Origin: Demequina silvatica
GTDB lineage: Bacteria; Actinomycetota; Actinomycetes; Actinomycetales; Demequinaceae
Reading direction: 5' to 3'
Length of the DNA stretch: 64,000 nt
Assembly (NCBI RefSeq): GCF_000971215.1
Contig: NZ_BBMA01000002.1
Span: 665,111-729,110, forward strand
A program made the position numbers and the translations under genes. Below are positions 21,204 through 26,898 of this stretch, piece after piece. The notes beneath the pieces are model-generated. The model saw nothing but the letters and a program-made list of their open reading frames with translations, was not told where the DNA came from and did not search any database. Position 1 is the stretch's first letter. The number at the start of each line of letters is the position of its first letter.

Positions 21204-21617
21204 TCAGGAGCACTCGGCGTTCTCGACGTACCCGTTCTGGGCGTCGAAGCGCACCCCCGGGTCGTCGGACACGTCGCCGTTCGGGTGCATGAGCTGCACG
21301 CACCAGCTGTCGATGTCGCCCGGCGTCCACGCGACGAACTCGACGCCCGGCGACGCGGCGAGCACCGGGTCGCCGTCGATGACGTACTCGCCGTCCACCA
21401 GGTCGACGTCGACCACGGTGGTGTTCTCGTCGTAGGCGGCGCGGATGAGCGTGCCCAGGTTCATGGCGTCCGACTGCGCGGCGGCGTCGTTGGCCTTGTT
21501 CTGATGGTTCAGGTACAGCGGTATCGCGACCGCCGCCAGGACGCCGATGATGACGATCACCACCACCAGCTCGACCATCGAGTACCCGCCATCACGGCGC
21601 GTGAATCTCCCCCACAT
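21204..21617 (-). CDS. Type IV pilin-like protein (prepilin N-terminal methylation motif)
   Basis: 137 residues. The N-terminus RRDGGYSMVELVVVIVIIG is a class III signal peptide: prepilin peptidase would cut after GG, leaving a methylated Tyr and the conserved Glu at position 5. A 20-residue hydrophobic helix and a soluble domain with two Cys (one near the C-terminus, as in a disulfide loop) follow. ATG 21617 is preceded by GAGGGG. No assembly ATPase, platform protein or prepilin peptidase gene is nearby, so this is an orphan pilin or pseudopilin relying on machinery elsewhere. Such pilins can serve DNA uptake, adhesion or secretion. Confidence 0.88.
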   Translation of the reverse strand: MWGRFTRRDGGYSMVELVVVIVIIGVLAAVAIPLYLNHQNKANDAAAQSDAMNLGTLIRAAYDENTTVVDVDLVDGEYVIDGDPVLAASPGVEFVAWTPGDIDSWCVQLMHPNGDVSDDPGVRFDAQNGYVENAECS

Positions 21618-23709: not shown

Positions 23710-25050
23710 TCAGGCGGGGACCACCAGGTCCTCGTCGCGGGTGATCTGCTCCTCGTAGGCGCGGCGCGCCCGCAGGTACCGCCACGACGCCGCGGCGATC
23801 GCCACGCCCGCGACGCCCGCGCACGCCGTCACCAGGAAGCCGCCCTGAGAGCCGTGCCGGTCGATGATCGCGCCCGCCAGCCATGCGCCCGCGGCGATGC
23901 CCACGTCCATGCCGGTGCGGGTCCACGTCATGCCCTCGGTCAGGCGCGAACGCGGCACCAGCGCGTGCGTGACACCGTCGCCCACCGCCATGGTCGGCGC
24001 GATCGCCAGGCCCGTGAGGAACATCAGCGCCCCGAGCGCGAGCAGGCCCGGCGCGAACATGAAGGACACCGCGCCGATCCCCGTCACCGACACCCCCCAC
24101 AGCAGGCGCGACGCGAGCGTCCGCGCCCACACGCGCGAGCCGTACGCGAGACCGCCGACCAGCGAGCCGATCGCCCACACCGCCAGCACCAGCCCGGCCA
24201 TGTCCTTGTGACCCAGCTCCTCCGCGAAGGCGACCGTCGCCGCGTCGACCGAGGCGAACATCGCCCCCTGCGTCGCGAAGATCACGGTGGTGACGATCAG
24301 CGCGGGGGTGGTGACCAGCAGGTGGCCGCGCAGGGCGCCCCGGTAGCGGCGCAGGCCGCGCGGCCGCGGCGGCAGGCCCACGCGCTCGAGGGTGCCGTCG
24401 ATGACGAGGGCGGTGCTGTGGTCGTGCTCGGCCTGGAAGCGGCGGGCGTCCGCGCGCCGCGCCGGGGGCTCCGTCGCCTTGAGGGAGAGGAAGCCGTAGC
24501 CGCCGATCGCCAGCGACACCACCGCGATCGCGGACGGCAGCCACGACGTCACCTGCGTCGCGAGCACCGTCGCGAGCGCCGGGCCCGCGACGAACAGCAC
24601 CTCCTCGAGCGAGGACTCGAGGGAGAACGCGGTGTTGAGCGCGTCCTTGTCGGGCACGATGTGCGTCCAGCGTGCGCGGGTGTGCGTCGACTGCGTCCCG
24701 CCCGCCGCGAACAGCGGCGTGAGCGCGATGAGCACCCAGATGGGCTGGTGCGTGAGCGCCGCCGCGATCATCGCGATGCGGCCCACGATCGCGATCGCGT
24801 AGCCGATGCGCAGCACGCGTGACTGCCCGTACGCGTCGACCAGCCGTCCCACCTGCGGCGACACGATGGCGTAGGAGATCGCGATGGCGGCGACCACCAT
24901 GCCGCCGAACTCGTAGCGGCCGTACTCGATCTGCACCAGCAGGAAGGTCGCCAGCCCGGTGAGCCCCATCTGGATGCGCGCGAGCAGGCCCCAGGCCGTG
25001 AACGCGCGTGCGCCGGGCAGGGCGAGGATGCCCCGATAGGGGGAGAGCAT
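23710..25050 (-). CDS. MFS transporter
   Basis: 446 residues with about twelve hydrophobic helices and a cytoplasmic central loop (ERVGLPPRPRGLRRYRG). The inter-helix motif GRLVDAYGQSRVLRIGY matches MFS motif A. Likely a small-molecule/proton antiporter. The substrate cannot be told. A paralogue at 43399-44670 shares the N-terminal pattern YRxILAxPGAxAFxxxGLLAR and overall layout. The ATG has GGGGGAGAG-like context in the plus strand but no strong Shine-Dalgarno on its own strand. The hairpin at 25126-25160 separates it from the antiporter genes upstream. Confidence 0.88.
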   Translation of the reverse strand: MLSPYRGILALPGARAFTAWGLLARIQMGLTGLATFLLVQIEYGRYEFGGMVVAAIAISYAIVSPQVGRLVDAYGQSRVLRIGYAIAIVGRIAMIAAALTHQPIWVLIALTPLFAAGGTQSTHTRARWTHIVPDKDALNTAFSLESSLEEVLFVAGPALATVLATQVTSWLPSAIAVVSLAIGGYGFLSLKATEPPARRADARRFQAEHDHSTALVIDGTLERVGLPPRPRGLRRYRGALRGHLLVTTPALIVTTVIFATQGAMFASVDAATVAFAEELGHKDMAGLVLAVWAIGSLVGGLAYGSRVWARTLASRLLWGVSVTGIGAVSFMFAPGLLALGALMFLTGLAIAPTMAVGDGVTHALVPRSRLTEGMTWTRTGMDVGIAAGAWLAGAIIDRHGSQGGFLVTACAGVAGVAIAAASWRYLRARRAYEEQITRDEDLVVPA

Positions 25051-25125
25051 GACGGAACCTCACAGGGAAGAAGACATCTCGCGCGTCCTCGCGCGGAAGC
25101 CACGCCAACTGCGCGACGTGGCCGG

Positions 25126-25160
25126 CGCATCGTCCCCGGGTGAGGCCCGCCGGGACGATG
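25126..25160 (-). terminator. Terminator-like hairpin made of two inverted GGACGATG repeats
   Basis: CATCGTCCC (25128-25136) and GGGACGATG (25152-25160) are perfect 9-bp arms, with an inner CGGG/CCCG that extends the stem. It lies just after the stop of the antiporter gene (minus strand) and before the MFS gene, so it can terminate khtTU transcription. One arm is a full CGCATCGTCC repeat. Confidence 0.7.
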
Positions 25161-25170
25161 GCCCATGGTC

Positions 25171-26415
25171 TCACACGGGCGTGCGGGACCGTGACCGTGG
25201 CGTGGGGGGCTTGAGGGGCGACGGGATGTGGTCCGCGTAGCGCATGAGGATCGACCCGGCGACGGCGAGCATGAGCACGTAGGCGGCCGCGAACGGTCCC
25301 AGCAGGGGCTGCGCTCCGGCGGCGACGCCCAGCCCCGCGATGACGATCGAGAACTCGCCGCGCGGGATGAGCGACAGGCCCGTGCGCCATTGGCCCTTGG
25401 GGCCGATCCCGACGCGCCGCGCGGCCCACACGCCCGTGACGATCTTGGTGAGCGCGGTCACCACCGCGAGCCCGAGCGCGGGCAGCAGCACCGGCCACAG
25501 GTCGCGCGGGTCGATGCTGATGCCGAAGAACACGAAGAAGATCCCGCCGAACACGTCGCGCAGCGGCGGCATGAGGCTGCGCAGCTGGTCGGCGACGTTG
25601 CCCGACAGCGTCAGCCCCAGGAGGAACGCTCCGACCGCGGCGGACACCTGCACCGCCTCCGCGAGTCCCGCGACCAGGAACGCGAGGCCCAGCACGCTCA
25701 GCAGCAGCAGCTCGCGCGAGTGCGAGTGCACCGCGGTCGACAGCTGGCGCGAGAAGCGCATCGCGAACAGGAACGCCGCGGCGACGATGGCGATGGCGAT
25801 CGCGGCGGCGATCGCCCCCTGCAGCAGTGTCGCGCCCACCAGCATGACCGCGAGGATGGGCAGGAACAGCGCCATCGCGATGTCCTCCATCACCAGCAGG
25901 CTGAGGATGACGGGCGTCTCGCGGTTGGCGACCCGGTCGAAGTCGTCGAGCAGGCGCGCGATGATGCCCGAGCTGGAGATGTAGGTGACGCCCGCGAGCA
26001 GCACCGAGGCGGTGACGGACCAGCCCATCATCAGCCCGACCAGGAGGCCCGGCGTGGCGTTGAGCGCGAGGTCGAGCAGCCCCGCCTGCCACGTGGTGCG
26101 CATGCCCACGCGCAGGTCGTCGGGCGAGTACTCGAGCCCGAGCAGGAGCAGCAGCAGCACGATCCCGATCTGCGCGCCGATCGACAGGAACTCCTCGCCC
26201 GCGCTGATGGGGATGAAGCCGCCCTCGCCCATGAGCAGGCCCGCGAGGAGGTACAGCGGGATCGAGGGGATCCCGATGCGTCCCGCGAGGCGGCCCAGCA
26301 GTGCGAGGACCAGGAACACGACGCCGAGCTCGATGAACACGAGCGCCGTGTCGCCCCCGTGGGCGCCCTCGACTGCGACACGCAGTCCCGTGAAGGGTGC
26401 GGTCGCGGCGTCCAT
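25171..26415 (-). CDS. Monovalent cation:proton antiporter, CPA2 (KhtU/KefB-like)
   Basis: 414 residues, about twelve membrane helices. CPA2 features are clear: the N-terminal GRLAGRIGIPSIPLYLLAGLLMGEGG, the helix with LLLLLLGLEYSP, SSSGIIARLL, and the conserved VQVSAAVGAFLLG and FFVFFGISID segments. There is no C-terminal RCK domain. Instead the gene three bases upstream encodes a separate TrkA-C protein, exactly the KhtT-KhtU arrangement of Bacillus K+/H+ antiporters. Likely function: K+ (or other cation) efflux and pH/osmotic homeostasis at the plasma membrane. Confidence 0.92.
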   Translation of the reverse strand: MDAATAPFTGLRVAVEGAHGGDTALVFIELGVVFLVLALLGRLAGRIGIPSIPLYLLAGLLMGEGGFIPISAGEEFLSIGAQIGIVLLLLLLGLEYSPDDLRVGMRTTWQAGLLDLALNATPGLLVGLMMGWSVTASVLLAGVTYISSSGIIARLLDDFDRVANRETPVILSLLVMEDIAMALFLPILAVMLVGATLLQGAIAAAIAIAIVAAAFLFAMRFSRQLSTAVHSHSRELLLLSVLGLAFLVAGLAEAVQVSAAVGAFLLGLTLSGNVADQLRSLMPPLRDVFGGIFFVFFGISIDPRDLWPVLLPALGLAVVTALTKIVTGVWAARRVGIGPKGQWRTGLSLIPRGEFSIVIAGLGVAAGAQPLLGPFAAAYVLMLAVAGSILMRYADHIPSPLKPPTPRSRSRTPV

Positions 26416-26418
26416 CCG

Positions 26419-26898
26419 TCAGCCCGTCAGGATCGCGGCCGCGCGGTCGACGGCCTCGTCGGAGCCCATGACGAGGACCACGTCCCCCGGCTCGAAGATG
26501 AAGGACGGCTCGATCCCGGGGATGCCCTGGTCGCCGCGGATCACCGCGACCACGGACGCGGACGTGACGGTGCGGATCCGGCCCTCCGCGAGGGAGCGGC
26601 CCACCAGGCCGCCGGACTTGGGCATGGTCACCCACTCGATCGCGAGCCCCACGATGGTGTGGCGGAGGTCCTCGAGCCTGGCGATGATGTTGGTCCCGCC
26701 CAGCAGGTCGGCGAGCTTGCCCGAGTCGCCCTCCGTGAGCTCCACGGTGCCGCGGCAGGCGTCGGGGTCCTCGCGGTCGTACAGCGCGAGGTCGCGCTTG
26801 CCGTCGCGCCGGACCACCACGCCGATGTGGTCGCCGCCCTCCGCGGTGAACTCGTAGCGGACGCCGACTCCGGGGAGCGGGGTCTCGAAGATGTCCAT
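26419..26898 (-). CDS. TrkA-C (RCK_C) regulator of the antiporter, KhtT-like
   Basis: 159 residues. The N-terminal half is a KhtT-type domain (ETPLPGVGVRYEF, IGVVVRRDGKRDLALY). The C-terminal half is a TrkA-C domain ending in EPSFIFEPGDVVLVMGS. KhtT binds KhtU and gates it in response to nucleotide (c-di-AMP in B. subtilis) and pH. It lies three bases upstream of the antiporter gene and must be co-expressed with it. A perfect 14-bp palindrome occupies the 13-26 bases before its ATG. Confidence 0.9.
   Translation of the reverse strand: MDIFETPLPGVGVRYEFTAEGGDHIGVVVRRDGKRDLALYDREDPDACRGTVELTEGDSGKLADLLGGTNIIARLEDLRHTIVGLAIEWVTMPKSGGLVGRSLAEGRIRTVTSASVVAVIRGDQGIPGIEPSFIFEPGDVVLVMGSDEAVDRAAAILTG

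Follow-up and report, generated by a model that had tools for sequence, protein, structure and literature searches.

Introduction

To our knowledge, uptake sequences are known only from two Gram-negative families. The uptake sequence of the Neisseriaceae (DUS) has dialects, as set out by Frye (2013; PMC3630211). For Haemophilus influenzae, Kingsford (2007; PMC1852404) reports both inverted arrangements, with 50 and 25 cases within 10 nt, and for Neisseria meningitidis it gives 10 hairpins in head-to-head gaps and 94 in tail-to-tail gaps. The repeat of the genus Demequina described here resembles the DUS in that both have more than 1000 copies, dialects with a common core and inverted pairs. 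It is unlike the DUS in having a different, GC-rich sequence in an actinobacterial host, and its receptor and uptake role are putative.

Leader RNAs that regulate bacterial transporter genes in cis form a general class, and the site studied here is similar to them in that covarying stems lie between a promoter-like box and a start codon. The window, by which we mean the whole 64,000-nucleotide stretch of Demequina silvatica DNA that was analysed, is 74% GC and comes from a host genome of 2.92 Mb. Here, we examine one inverted pair of the repeat, located between an antiporter gene and a gene of the MFS type. Our overall reading, which we hold to be probable though well short of certain, is that the repeat is a genome-wide self-tag and that the inverted pair at this site forms the P1 stem in a 5' leader RNA that belongs to the MFS gene. 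The analysis demonstrates the motif statistics, the dialects, a conserved structure with covariation, the association with the MFS gene and the constant spacing to its start; from these we infer the uptake function, the promoter and the regulation of the MFS gene.

Results

The inverted pair and its gene neighbourhood

The hairpin site is the gap between two co-directional minus-strand genes, the antiporter gene and then the MFS gene. On the plus strand of the window, CATCGTCCC at 25128-25136 stands opposite GGGACGATG at 25152-25160 as an inverted pair; in its longer form, CGCATCGTCCC at 25126-25136 is followed by the 15-base spacer CGGGTGAGGCCCGCC and then by GGGACGATG. The minus-strand hairpin starts 10 nt past the antiporter stop codon (25171-25173), and the two facing repeat copies that the earlier note placed after the antiporter are thus present. 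In one detail the sequence departs from that note: the extended motif (GGGACGATGCGCCGGCC) is found only in the minus-strand copy, the plus-strand copy continuing with GC rather than CG. As in an intrinsic terminator, a GC-rich hairpin lies shortly 3' of a stop codon. The features of the site are as follows, with gene boundaries taken from a codon-usage gene caller that used no annotation.

25126-25136, minus strand: full motif copy, GGGACGATGCG on this strand (motif match)
Within 25126-25136, minus strand: 3' arm of stem P1 (25129-25135) and the first part of the conserved GCGCCGG linker (structure alignment)
25152-25160, plus strand: second motif copy, 9-mer core only, GGGACGATG and then GC (motif match)
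Within the complement of 25152-25160, in the minus-strand RNA: 5' arm of stem P1 (structure alignment)
25093-25159, minus strand: conserved leader RNA, model R1, consisting of P1, linker GCGCCG and P2 (covariation, cmsearch)
25117-25122 with 25099-25104, minus strand: stem P2 of the leader (covariation)
25080-25095, minus strand: third leader hairpin, CGCGCG-AGGA-CGCGCG (folding)
25164-25175, minus strand: promoter-like box TGTGAGACCATG that overlaps the stop codon of the antiporter gene; putative promoter (loose pattern)
23710-25050, minus strand: MFS gene downstream of the leader, PF07690 (gene call and domain match)
25171-26415, minus strand: CPA2-type cation/proton antiporter gene upstream of the leader, PF00999 (domain match)
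26419-26898, minus strand: TrkA-C domain gene upstream of the antiporter on the same strand, PF02080 (domain match)

Named close relatives of the window belong to Demequina: D. phytophila has an antiporter 98% identical to the window's, and the sequence of locus L194 is identical to that of G019, which places the host in this genus. A type IV pilin-like gene lies near the antiporter on the minus strand (21204-21617), and at 11 of 17 loci from Demequina or Demequinaceae its relatives lie no more than 10 kb from the antiporter; the product of this gene is a possible candidate receptor for the repeat.

A genome-wide repeat with dialects

The window contains 23 copies of the core 9-mer GGGACGATG, where 1.32 are expected. 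Genome-wide, it reaches 986 copies (513 forward, 473 reverse) compared with 11 for the reversed pattern, and GGACGATGCG reaches 1369 copies compared with 4. There are therefore about a thousand copies on both strands, far above chance, as with DUS and USS. Single-site gene and spacing statistics were taken from 464 kb of the 2.92 Mb, where 206 sites, around which the consensus lengthens to ~GGGACGATGCGSBGGYCG, are split 102/104 between the strands at a mean spacing of 2.0 kb. Genes hold 132 of the 206 sites, compared with 91% of random positions, so that gaps are enriched about fourfold. Among the papers listed for the literal motif, the top ones dealt with aptamers, primers or unrelated work. 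Separate literature searches for an actinobacterial or Demequina uptake sequence, in a collection with no preprints and few subscription papers, showed none among the papers listed.

The repeat differs between species of the genus. GGACGATGCG has at least 700 copies in 15 of 44 genus genomes, 235 in one and at most 123 in the other 28; GGCCGATGC has at least 900 copies in 12 of the 44, none of which belongs to the 15 rich in GGACGATGCG. The genome of the window carries 134 copies of GGCCGATGC, against 125 for a control, and some species have neither word at high copy. A k-mer survey of ten congeners, 80 kb each, found GGCCGATGCG in G016, GGCCGATGCTG in G005, GGACGATGCC in G023, the window's own motif form in G018, G009 and G028 and a weak GGCCGATGC-like signal in G012; nothing clear was seen in the samples of G034, G004 and G026. 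Species dialects with a common core, a feature of DUS and USS, are thus observed. Outside the family, none of 273 genomes from the rest of the order has more than 399 copies of GGACGATGC, the maximum seen there, compared with 1494 in the genome of the window. Two minor observations concern these counts: in G023 (D. sediminis; loci L097-L100) a second over-represented word, ~CGGCTCCGCCACAC, has 8-9 copies in the 80 kb sample, and GGACGATGC is raised to 281-399 in four genomes of one other family, f20 (G098, G238, G268 and G216), perhaps as a related dialect.

The machinery expected of an uptake system, namely a type IV pilus ATPase, ComEA and ComEC, is also present in the genome. A PilT-family ATPase scored above the cut-off in 44/44 genus genomes compared with 5/14 control genomes. 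ComEA was matched in 43 of the 44, with 13 above the curated cut-off; G000 is not among these 13, its match scoring 46.0 bits against a cut-off of 53.1 and lying less than 1 kb from ComEC. Many control genomes, too, have sub-threshold matches to PilT and ComEA. ComEC was found in 46/47 family genomes, but alone it is weak evidence because 10/14 controls, E. coli included, match as well. The uptake-sequence likeness proposed in the earlier note agrees with copy number, dialects, inverted-pair excess and competence genes alike, and as an analogy it holds well.

Inverted pairs and gene ends

Close pairs, with at most 30 bases between copies, number 52 inverted and 8 direct across the genome (p = 5e-9 against an even split). 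The inverted pairs comprise 36 tail-in (GGACGATG..CATCGTCC) and at least 16 tail-out, the kind found at this site; the latter figure is a lower bound, since tail-out pairs were counted with a 9-mer and tail-in and direct pairs with an 8-mer. In the 464 kb sample, all 19 pairs of neighbouring copies at most 100 bases apart are inverted, a set that does not include the site's own pair because the CG is missing from its plus copy. A similar picture emerges in the second dialect: 400 kb of G031 gave 17 inverted pairs and 1 direct pair within 50 bases, 3 of the 17 being overlapping 14-base palindromes, and 6 inverted and 5 direct pairs at 51-100 bases. Close inverted pairs thus exceed direct ones, as among USS pairs of Neisseria and the Pasteurellaceae, where close pairs are inverted and direct pairs rare. 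Both arrangements occur in Demequina too (36 tail-in and at least 16 tail-out pairs within 30 nt), as in H. influenzae. As a separate observation, tail-in pairs (n = 36) favour total lengths of 36 (12 pairs), 28 (8) and 34 (6) bases, the loop frequently being ACCC/GGGT (L016, L017, L027, L108 and others); the extended motifs therefore pair along most of their length.

Nearly all pairs lie between genes: 47 of the 52 are intergenic, 3 cross a gene edge and 2 are within genes. Enrichment of inverted pairs at gene ends, which the earlier note had named as a test of its terminator proposal, was found: of the 37 pairs located in co-directional or convergent gaps, 29 have a stop codon no more than 35 nt away, where random placement in the same gaps predicts 18.7. 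Single copies share this tendency (20/29 near a stop against 13.1 expected). Convergent and divergent gaps hold 10 pairs each, which is unlike N. meningitidis. Relative to gap-type shares taken from the 464 kb sample, pairs lean per base to convergent gaps (p = 0.046) and singles do not shift (p = 1.0), with no difference between pairs and singles in gap-type preference (p = 0.19). In 47 flanks of 37 pairs, the sequence 3' of the stems shows no U-tract, with 1.06 T per 8 nt (maximum 3) against 1.10 by composition; the T-tail of the Neisseria and Pasteurellaceae terminator pairs is missing. A terminator scan of 25000-25300 with a T-run required likewise returned 0 sites.

There is therefore a preference for hairpins and some link to gene ends, yet the classic marks of a terminator are missing. 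Terminators without a U-tract have been discussed for actinobacteria, and the absence of the U-tract is therefore compatible with a terminator role. What stands of the earlier proposal that inverted pairs are terminators is their excess over direct pairs and their nearness to stops; what does not is the U-tract, a bias particular to pairs and a preference for convergent over divergent gaps. As a claim about motif pairs in general, it holds weakly.

Structure and covariation of the proposed leader RNA

Among congeners, the block 3' of the antiporter stop consists of a stem, GCGCCGG and YYACRUCGCGCAGGUGGYGURGC or near variants. In the 30-row alignment A1, pairing reaches 94.8% in stem P1, where 4 of the 7 pairs show double changes, and 97.8% in stem P2, where 4 of the 6 do. 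The P1 share is inflated because its arms were picked by complementarity; those of P2 were not so picked. Three of 33 leaders (G009, G031 and G011) were dropped from A1 for a poorly placed P1 arm, and three starts (G041, G001 and G005) were reset by eye to a compact stem. A GTCGGC/GCCGAT stem is readable by eye in G031 and G011 and enters no count, and MAFFT set the D. pelophila 5' arm three columns off, which counts against P1. RNAalifold predicts both stems from the 30 rows.

Four of five structure measures exceeded all 500 shuffles, controls which overstate the contrast as the congener rows are related; for the fifth, pair types, 129 of the 500 attained the observed value. The structure also beats every slid version. 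Taken singly, the 5' arms of P1 lie above the 95th percentile of shuffled upstream sequence in 16/33 rows, and the leader folds modestly better than shuffles (z = -2.08; 7/200). The cmsearch hit of R1 to the window (E = 1.6e-11) is a match by construction, the window sequence being part of the model. R1 matches the window and 16 of 19 searched loci, all 16 named Demequina, with 98.3% and 97.1% paired, in a second alignment (A2) that was fitted to R1, shares sequences with A1 and so is not independent; one Demequinaceae and two Streptomyces loci of the 19 were unmatched. The letters of the third hairpin are present in 11 of 14 loci (L121-L134).

Stem and repeat can be told apart in several species. 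D. pelophila (G018), whose genome has 927 motif copies, carries ATCCTCCC/GGGGAGGAT as P1, a double change that keeps the stem and loses the motif, and NBRC 110052 (G026) carries ATCGCTC/GAGCGAT. Conversely, G039 and G033 have GGGACGATGCG and AGGACGATGCG at the leader despite only 67 and 61 motif copies. At this site, the RNA stem therefore accounts for the sequence better than the repeat does.

Distribution and position of the proposed leader RNA

The leader occurs at 33 of 43 antiporter loci of the genus; G032, one of the 44 genus genomes, lacks a close antiporter and is outside the 43. Where an MFS gene comes next, judged within ~1-1.5 kb past the antiporter, it is present at 31/31 loci, and where none does at 2/12 (Fisher p = 3e-8). 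These two loci, where another gene follows, speak against the leader-MFS link; in both (G031 and G011) inspection by eye shows the leader followed by a short reading frame and, beyond it, one resembling an acetyltransferase. Linker GCGCCGG and MFS start could both be located at 30 loci; they are 74-79 nt apart at 23 of these and 127-135 nt apart at 7, compared with 3-178 nt from the antiporter stop to P1 across congener loci. A loose TGTGAGA-like box stands ahead of the stem in 28/33 leaders against 5.2 (maximum 13) in shuffles, a count in which rows are related and a few matches off-place; a scan found no sigma-70 consensus promoter at the site. From the MFS linkage, the fixed start spacing and the preceding box, we conclude that the block is probably a 5' leader of the downstream gene. 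A conserved upstream ORF starting from an ATG in the motif was rejected, the triplet not being ATG in several leaders (G030, G041, G001 and G007).

In contrast to described leader RNAs, this one has no Rfam match (none in window 24950-25300 at E up to 1) and appears confined to the genus. With strict filters, R1 was found in 17 of 297 order genomes, once in each and always in this genus, of which 23 genomes had been drawn.

Discussion

The pair at this site is best read as part of the MFS gene's 5' leader; it may act as a terminator too, though nothing requires this. A chance palindrome in a GC-rich gap is conceivable at 74% GC, but its probability is negligible in view of 23 copies where 1.32 are expected, the preference for inverted over direct pairs and the covariation. 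If the motif were Chi/KOPS-like or another orientation-dependent chromosome signal, its high copy number and asymmetric sequence would be accounted for, but the near equality of forward and reverse copies (513 and 473), the variation of the motif between species of one genus and the lack of a consistent skew in 21 sampled stretches (scored by stretch, on unordered contigs) make this very improbable; a polar motif of that type was rejected on strand balance.

A terminator is a closer competitor for the site itself. The pair would fold in the antiporter mRNA and end transcription, as uptake-sequence pairs do in Neisseria, and the ratios of 52 to 8 genome-wide and 17 to 1 in the second dialect, the 47 of 52 intergenic pairs, the 29 of 37 near a stop (18.7 expected) and the start of this pair 10 nt past one all accord with it. 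Yet single copies show the same near-stop bias (20/29 against 13.1), divergent gaps hold as many pairs as convergent ones (10 each, with a weak per-base shift at p = 0.046 and pairs equal to singles at p = 0.19), and the T content of the 47 flanks is at composition level. At the site, moreover, the stem tracks the MFS gene and its start codon and not the antiporter stop. We therefore consider the terminator reading unlikely, and the earlier assignment of this pair to the antiporter operon as its terminator gives way to a leader RNA tied to the downstream MFS start codon. The hairpin might also do both, ending antiporter transcripts and forming the 5' stem of an MFS leader started in the gap. 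Its place between the two genes and its sequence are compatible with either use, but there is no U-tract, and P1 can be as far as 178 nt past the antiporter stop in distant congeners; this dual role is possible, though we find it doubtful.

On the preferred reading, that of a leader RNA built on a self-tag, the repeat would mark Demequina DNA as uptake sequences mark that of Neisseriaceae and Pasteurellaceae, at about one per 2 kb in both orientations, and its species-specific dialects would be read by the type IV pilus/ComEA machine. Inverted pairs would arise and persist as they fold into hairpins. At this site, transcription would start just past the promoter-like box overlapping the antiporter stop, the minus-strand RNA would fold into P1, P2 and the third hairpin, and this fold would set the amount of MFS protein, either as an attenuator or as a ligand-sensing leader. 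For the complete proposal, in which Demequina has a DUS system of several dialects and the tag doubles as a genus-specific leader stem controlling the MFS gene, we judge the chances to be even.

If real, such a DUS system would, within the reach of the literature searches, be the first from a Gram-positive genus. A dialect-bearing actinobacterial counterpart would then represent an independent origin of uptake sequences, and a new genus would be at hand in which to test directly why uptake tags evolve. The site offers a clean case for separating selection on RNA structure from selection on the repeat, and the leader is a new candidate regulatory RNA. In distant congeners, a second conserved leader block is visible, ~CCCCACCCAGG..GCAG..CTGCCCCTYGCTCAAGGAC; it lies before the downstream gene in L147, L152, L153 and L155 and also, without P1-P2, in L154 and L157.
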